Assembly (NCBI GenBank): GCA_002898075.1
Contig: BDSV01000044.1
Span: 1 to 64,000, forward strand
DNA from: a bacterium BMS3Abin03
Lineage (GTDB): Bacteria > Bacteroidota > Ignavibacteria > Ignavibacteriales > Ignavibacteriaceae
Length of the DNA stretch: 64,000 nt
Direction: 5' to 3'
Positions 63,472 through 64,000 of this stretch are shown here, piece by piece. The notes under the pieces were generated by a model. The model saw only the letters and a list, made by a program, of their open reading frames with translations, searched no databases and was not told where the DNA came from. Every line of letters begins with the position of its first letter. Position 1 is the stretch's first letter. The position numbers were made by a program, and so were the translations under genes.

Positions 63472-63547
63472 ACTAAAATATTTATGTTGTCAATAATTTG
63501 GTAGTTTTAAAAAATTTATTTATATATGGATAGTTCTTTAAAATAAA

Positions 63548-63602
63548 TGTCGTGATTTAAGGTGAATTGCAGCGACAAAAAATAAATTGCTAAATAGCTA
63601 TT
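63548..63602 (+). promoter_or_regulatory. SAM-II-like riboswitch aptamer 1
   Basis: P1 TGTCGT/GCGACA enclosing GATTTAAGGTGAATTGCA, followed by AAAAATAAATTGCTAAATAGC. Confidence 0.7.
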
Positions 63603-63611
63603 GAGTTTGTT

Positions 63612-63638
63612 ACCCCGCTATTTAGCGGGTTTTTTTTG
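63612..63638 (+). terminator. Intrinsic terminator 1 (expression platform of aptamer 1)
   Basis: CCCGCTATTTAGCGGG followed by TTTTTTTT. Confidence 0.85.
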
Positions 63639-63691
63639 TCTTTGCCTGCTGTTAAGCAGACCTGCTTGCCGACAGGCAAGCTAAATCCAAC

Positions 63692-63743
63692 CGTCGTGAT
63701 TTGTGACATATTGCCGCGACGTTAAACTTGTGCTAAAAAGTCA
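63692..63743 (+). promoter_or_regulatory. SAM-II riboswitch aptamer 2
   Basis: P1 CGTCGT/GCGACG; loop GATTTGTGACATATTGCC; TTAAACTTGTGCTAAAAAGTCA with TGAC/GTCA pseudoknot pairing. Confidence 0.85.
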
Positions 63744-63757
63744 GAGGTGAAATTTAA

Positions 63758-63786
63758 ACCCCCGTCTTTTTAAGCGGGGGTTTTTT
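63758..63786 (+). terminator. Intrinsic terminator 2 (expression platform of aptamer 2)
   Basis: ACCCCCG-TCTTTTTAAG-CGGGGGT followed by TTTTT. Confidence 0.85.
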
Positions 63787-63847
63787 ATTTGCAGTTACTG
63801 AAAAAAATTTTTGGTCATTAACAAAATAAATGAAAGGGAAAATACAA

Positions 63848-64000
63848 ATGAATGAAATAACATCAATACTCGAATCGATCCCGGTGGATCCTTTGACTGG
63901 TGCTATTGCAGTTCCTATATATCAAACTTCTACTTATGTACAGGAAGCTCCAAATGTTAATAAGGGATTTGATTATACGCGGACAAATAACCCAACTCGT
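63848..64000 (+). CDS. Partial Cys/Met-metabolism PLP-dependent enzyme (cystathionine gamma-synthase / sulfhydrylase family), runs off window
   Basis: MNEITSILESIPVDPLTGAIAVPIYQTSTYVQEAPNVNKGFDYTRTNNPTR: family N-terminal signature. Confidence 0.88.
   Translation, partial: MNEITSILESIPVDPLTGAIAVPIYQTSTYVQEAPNVNKGFDYTRTNNPTR

Follow-up and report, generated by a model that had tools for sequence, protein, structure and literature searches.

Tandem SAM-II aptamers with one intrinsic terminator apiece upstream of a metB-type operon in a member of the Ignavibacteriales

The window analyzed here is a stretch of 64,000 nucleotides from bacterium BMS3Abin03 (order Ignavibacteriales; GenBank assembly GCA_002898075.1, contig BDSV01000044.1), whose genome is referred to below as G000. 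Region 63548-63787 of this window consists of two SAM-II aptamers with an intrinsic terminator after each (Table 1), and it is followed by a metB-type gene that begins in the window and continues in the contig, where homoserine dehydrogenase (hom), aspartokinase and lysA (diaminopimelate decarboxylase) come after it. The metB-type product belongs to the cystathionine gamma-synthase/gamma-lyase family, with all the model scores shown lying below the curated cut-offs, and the neighboring hom gene suggests that within this PLP family it is MetB. A previous sequence-only reading of this DNA had described two tandem SAM-II units, a terminator following each, and a methionine-metabolism gene downstream; its sequences and coordinates agree with the window, and all of these elements were found. 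A promoter search gave no match better than chance. The units are 144 nt apart, compared with 102-115 nt in most relatives and 145 nt in G022. The window's spacer contains two extra small hairpins, which are stable and have a single other near copy in the genome, at G000:C141, so that this segment could be a repeat or mobile element of small size.

Table 1. Features of the tandem SAM-II leader and the start of the downstream gene
Feature	Position	Strand	Pairing or evidence
SAM-II aptamer unit 1	63548..63599	+	RF00521 34.1 bits; P2a/P2b pair counts
Unit 1 P1	63548-63552 with 63573-63577	+	
Unit 1 GATTT	63554-63558	+	
Unit 1 P2a	63561-63563 with 63597-63599	+	GGU with GCU; two G-U pairs, one G-C
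Unit 1 P2b	63567-63570 with 63589-63593	+	UUGC with GCUAA
Unit 1 GCTAAATAGC	63589-63598	+	
Antiterminator unit 1	63587..63628	+	UUGCUAAAUAGC (63587-63598) with GCUAUUUAGCGG (63617-63628)
Intrinsic terminator unit 1	63614..63637	+	CCCGCTATTTAGCGGG + 8 T; hairpin 63614-63629
GCTATTTAGC inside unit 1 terminator hairpin	63617-63626	+	
Two extra small hairpins in inter-unit spacer	63644..63682	+	one further 2-mismatch copy in genome
SAM-II aptamer unit 2	63692..63742	+	RF00521 40.2 bits, above cut-off
Unit 2 P1	63692-63696 with 63717-63721	+	
Unit 2 P2a	63705-63707 with 63740-63742	+	GAC with GUC
Unit 2 P2b	63711-63714 with 63732-63736	+	UUGC with GCUAA
Unit 2 GCTAAAAAG	63732-63740	+	
Proposed antiterminator unit 2	63734..63773	+	AAAAAG of GCUAAAAAG with CUUUUU, plus GGU with ACC
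Intrinsic terminator unit 2	63756..63789	+	AAACCCCCGTCTTTTTAAGCGGGGGTTT (hairpin 63756-63783) + T-rich tail
CTTTTTAAGC at unit 2 terminator	63766-63775	+	
5' end of metB-type gene	63848..64000	+	runs to 65020 in contig

The identity of the aptamers was established with the Rfam SAM-II model, RF00521, which cmscan matched to unit 2 at 63683-63757, above the cut-off of 36 bits, and to unit 1 at 63539-63614, 1.9 bits below the gathering score. Searched against the whole 3.76 Mb assembly, the model gave E-values of 2.0e-7 for unit 2 and 8.3e-6 for unit 1, and the next-best place had an E-value of 0.35, so that the two units are the only significant places in the assembly. The ligand-site bases GAUUU, UUGC and GCUAAA, mapped by analogy from the structure of SAM-V, whose binding of SAM has been called virtually identical to that of SAM-II (PMC6061858), are present in both units, and the two share a common P2a register. 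Unit 1 had been thought to lack a short-range pseudoknot partner; it does have its P2a, whose counterparts in relatives covary.

Taken over 21 units from relatives, the helices P1, P2a and P2b together comprise 91.3% standard pairs (96% of cells are paired in P1, 81% in P2a and 93% in P2b). The covariation score reached 0.283, where shuffles gave 0.096 and slid alignments no more than 0.061; the slid versions are the fairer control, since the alignment contains related sequences and the shuffles consequently overstate significance. Changes on both sides of a pair occur in P1 and in P2a, where they affect two of the three pairs. Covariation is uninformative about P2b, because UUGC/GCUAA hardly varies.

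Three terminator-like sites, two of which are the terminators of units 1 and 2, were found in 1.2 kb where 0.6 would be expected. The minimum-energy fold of unit 1 is the 12-pair antiterminator (-22.2), and when GCUAAA is held unpaired, as it is in the SAM-bound pseudoknot, the fold changes to the terminator (-19.8). The duplex of this antiterminator by itself has an energy of -16.0, which none of the 44 control hairpins from the window equals, and as a modeled structure it is convincing. The antiterminator predicted for unit 2 is weaker: its energy of -8.4 is equaled by 6 of the 44 control hairpins, the terminator (-30.1) wins at equilibrium whether or not the pseudoknot strand is available, and the antiterminator appears only in RNA ending before the 3' strand of the terminator (RNA end at 63774). 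Unit 2 would thus be at best a kinetic switch. In that pre-termination fold the GGU/ACC pairing also holds part of the 5' strand of the terminator, and in the folds of all four genomes compared GCUAAAAAG lies in the antiterminator, with similar pairing in G027, G047 and G036. Since CTTTTTAAGC lies mostly in the loop of terminator 2 and touches a single stem base, its complementarity alone makes a weak antiterminator. The antiterminators proposed by the sequence-only reading therefore stand for unit 1, and for unit 2 are weaker than it described. Furthermore, when all 38 units that have a terminator are considered, pairing of the 3' P2 strand averages -10.8 with the unit's own terminator and -9.2 with those of other units, a result that none of 20,000 permutations equaled, and for 20 of these units at most 5% of 44 unrelated window hairpins pair as well.

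In sequence and structure, then, two complete aptamers of one type are found in one leader, and each is followed by a terminator as its putative expression platform, with a computed switch for unit 1 and at best a kinetic one for unit 2. The terminator at each unit supports the transcriptional type of control previously proposed for the tandem, and we consider it probable that the leader is a pair of complete SAM-II OFF switches placed one after the other. From the aptamers, terminators, antiterminator pairing and conservation found by computation we infer SAM binding, termination and an effect in the cell as follows. At low SAM, the strand of each unit containing GCUAAA would pair with the terminator region that lies downstream of it, and transcription would continue past both stops into metB-hom-aspartokinase-lysA. 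When SAM is abundant, each aptamer would shut its P2 pseudoknot, withdrawing GCUAAA from the antiterminator, and the terminator would form. Unit 1 would be thermodynamically bistable, and unit 2, with its much stronger terminator, would work only kinetically, during transcription.

Because expression would require readthrough at both stops, repression would multiply, and the chief gain of serial stops would be a lower leak, with a modest sharpening. For ideal independent switches with a readthrough of 1/(1+L/K), a calculation that is arithmetic and not data, the 90-10% span is 81-fold for one switch, 40-fold for two in series (apparent Hill coefficient 1.19) and 32-fold for three (1.26), while two leaks of 10% become 1%, the multiplied repression being a larger effect than the sharpening. 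The steep response of two switches that was suggested from the sequence alone is on these figures overstated.

We built a covariance model, R1, from these units and searched 80 genomes of the family with it, taking an E-value below 1e-7 as a strong match. Strong SAM-II was present in 14 genomes, in every one of them in a serial pair, and no solitary strong SAM-II was seen in the 80. We did not score as SAM-II the weak R1 matches in G002, G035 and G115, nor the RF00521 matches that fall inside coding sequence in G015 and G045. Ten of the 14 genomes carry SAM-II doubles (G000, G004, G014, G022, G023, G027, G036, G039, G113 and, at two loci, G047); in the other four (G007, G017, G031 and G049), which are the only ones of the family with RF01725, SAM-II follows a SAM-I/IV riboswitch (RF01725) that has its own terminator. 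At the double loci, our script rule detected a terminator after the first unit in 11 of 11 cases and after the second in 8 of 11. The doubles precede the window's type of metB in G027, G036 and G047, metK in G014 and G039, two small or unknown genes and then metK in G023 and G113, and unknown small genes in G004 and G022. Orthologues of the window's metB, 78-83% identical, occur in the family only in G027, G036 and G047, other family homologues being at most 52% identical; all four genomes have the tandem, so that its position upstream of this gene is shared by these relatives.

This metB is nearer to Bacteroidota homologues (up to 66% identity) than to its paralogues in the family (up to 52%), and its sequence is compatible with a possible transfer of the gene from Bacteroidota. 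Arrival of the leader together with the gene was considered and rejected, no SAM-II having been seen at E < 0.02 at the Bacteroidota metB loci examined.

Units in the same slot resemble each other across genomes more than they resemble their neighbors, with a mean distance of 0.34 within slots and 0.43 between slots (none of 2000 swaps of slot labels within genomes was as extreme; the statistic ignores phylogeny). SAM-II units following SAM-I/IV were assigned to slot 2 by position, and their sequences resemble slot 2. The exception is the second unit of G022, whose nearest unit is a slot 1 unit. Judging by sequence, slots 1 and 2 are separate old lineages; most simply, SAM-I/IV would have taken over the first position of an old pair in some places. 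Recent local duplication as the origin of the tandem was rejected on the likeness within slots.

The weakness of the unit 2 antiterminator, which its terminator outcompetes at equilibrium, raises the question of whether one unit alone responds to SAM, while the basal level is set by the other, as an almost constitutive attenuator or a relic. Decayed units do exist, in slot 1 of G014 and G039 (27 bits with R1, compared with approximately 50-70 in others) and in slot 3 of G362, and in a SAM-II/SAM-V tandem the linker blocked the SAM-II response, showing that neighboring sequence can silence an aptamer (PMC11508383). However, both window units keep all ligand-contacting bases and P2a pairs, the pre-termination folds of unit 2 in four genomes all place GCUAAAAAG in the antiterminator, and both slots have been kept as separate lineages across genera, and we consider a single responsive unit rather unlikely. 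Less likely again is a two-threshold or two-input device, in which the slots respond to different SAM concentrations or slot 1 recognizes another SAM-like ligand. It would account for the separate lineages and for their consistent differences beside P2b, where slot 2 usually has AUA/GUA-UUGC with GCUAAAAAG and slot 1 GAA/AAC-UUGC with GCUAAA[UCG], but the SAM-contacting bases are the same in both slots and the downstream genes bear no sign of a second ligand. A chance resemblance of short motifs and hairpins to SAM-II, to which the score of unit 1 below the Rfam cut-off might point, is refuted in practice by the genome-wide E-values, the covariation, the syntenic conservation and the methionine-pathway gene, and its probability is negligible.

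Two SAM-II OFF switches in series, the reading we prefer, can be compared with known systems. With SAM-II (RF00521) as known from the metA element (PMC1273637) and from Sinorhizobium meliloti metZ, predicted to be transcriptional (PMC9373788), the window's leader shares P1 and the P2 pseudoknot, the conserved core, a terminator after P2, methionine genes and OFF logic; it differs in having two units in series and in its lineage, the Ignavibacteriales. SAM-II has been known in the Bacteroides group since 2005 (PMC1273637), and our search of a paper collection found no literature joining the SAM-II riboswitch with "Ignavibacteri-". Two background statements of the sequence-only reading need correction: SAM-II is mostly transcriptional (PMC2258182, PMC6061858), not often translational, and tandem copies, held not to be commonly reported, number 44 in a 2022 survey, some with a terminator for each unit, under the name pseudo-cooperative (PMC9481103). 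As described there, these also place two SAM-II before one gene, and the window is no different in kind; its relatives add a triple with two abutting aptamers. The SAM-II/SAM-V bi-mechanism tandem (PMC9481103, PMC11508383) likewise has two SAM pseudoknot switches in series, but SAM-V acts on translation whereas both window platforms are terminators. Mixed serial switches of SAM-I/IV followed by SAM-II are represented by two examples in the survey (PMC9481103) and by six loci among the window's relatives. Given the 44 tandems in the survey, novelty is limited: the arrangement of the window's leader has been described before, and what is new is the lineage and its pattern. Tandem transcriptional SAM-II is hereby placed in the class Ignavibacteria, and in one family strong SAM-II is confined to two-gate leaders with either SAM-II or SAM-I/IV in the first slot. 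With doubles, mixed pairs and triples upstream of metB, metY and metK, the relatives provide a natural series for assessing what serial riboswitches could buy, be it lower leak, a steeper response or different thresholds.

Beyond the family, SAM-II matches were found in 43 of 391 genomes of the class, and a phylum-level search added one single genome outside it. In the same order as the window, G361 has SAM-II doubles before metK. In G391, also of this order, unit 1 has a terminator-like hairpin and the 3' strand of unit 2 contains a Shine-Dalgarno-like AAGGAG, with AAAAAATAAGGAG directly before the metK start codon, which makes this leader a candidate bi-mechanism tandem. SAM-I/IV followed by SAM-II stands before metY in family f8. 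By inspection, the six SAM-I/IV and SAM-II loci among the window's relatives (G031, G007, G049, G017, G243 and G307) all have a terminator after both switches. In L047, L048, L050, L051, L119 and L120, SAM-I/IV with a terminator and SAM-II with a terminator precede an O-acetylhomoserine sulfhydrylase gene, the SAM-I/IV of L119 being recognized by eye, without a model match above the cut-off. Families f4, f5 and f12 have single SAM-II copies before metK, metH and other genes, at loci only partly read by eye.

In family f14, metY is preceded by a triple leader (G260, G295, G332 and G342), in which aptamers A and B abut with zero linker and no terminator between them, followed by a terminator-like hairpin and then by a third SAM-II, C. 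The hairpin was recognized by eye in these four genomes, where the T-run rule of the script missed it, and by the script in G362, in which C has decayed. The triple leaders lie at L110 1004-1245, L111 1027-1303, L112 4631-4909 (minus strand), L113 877-1175 (minus strand) and, with the third aptamer decayed, L114 3298-3405 (minus strand). A and B appear to share one terminator; ligand binding by B is less certain, since B has lost at least one base of GAUUU. We tentatively suggest, as a doubtful proposal, that SAM-II serves the Ignavibacteria as a building block for leaders of graded complexity, from doubles through SAM-I/IV with SAM-II to the f14 triple, where the abutting A and B would share a terminator and bind SAM cooperatively ahead of a third SAM-II with its own stop. 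The accessible part of the 2022 survey names no SAM-II triplet, and its list of dual aptamers on a single platform holds glycine and guanidine-II only (PMC9481103). If the proposal is true, the f14 triple would contain, as far as the accessible literature goes, the first dual-aptamer, single-platform SAM riboswitch and a new candidate for a cooperative riboswitch, and the slots may differ in the SAM level to which they are tuned.

Some further loci were observed. In L041 (1260-3969) and L129 (1191-3905), tandem SAM-II is followed by a small unknown protein, a DUF6745 protein (an assignment checked in L041 alone) and metK. G023 and G113 have a SAM-I riboswitch (RF00162) alongside tandem SAM-II; a 2007 survey had no species with both classes. 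A SAM-II-like variant in L082 at 1501-1556 (G022:C43:87871-87926) has UUGU/ACUAA in place of UUGC/GCUAA, a compensated pair, together with a GGC/GCC P2a and a terminator-like hairpin, before a gene named by eye as an M3-type oligopeptidase; altered specificity is possible from its sequence. Finally, in L126 (2126-2182 and 3008-3062, minus strand) and L122 (1485-1542 and 2350-2406, minus strand), two SAM-II lie in series along a gene cluster, with GGAG inside the 3' pseudoknot strand, as in the translational type, and with L,D-transpeptidase-like and TPR-like genes (by eye) downstream instead of methionine genes.
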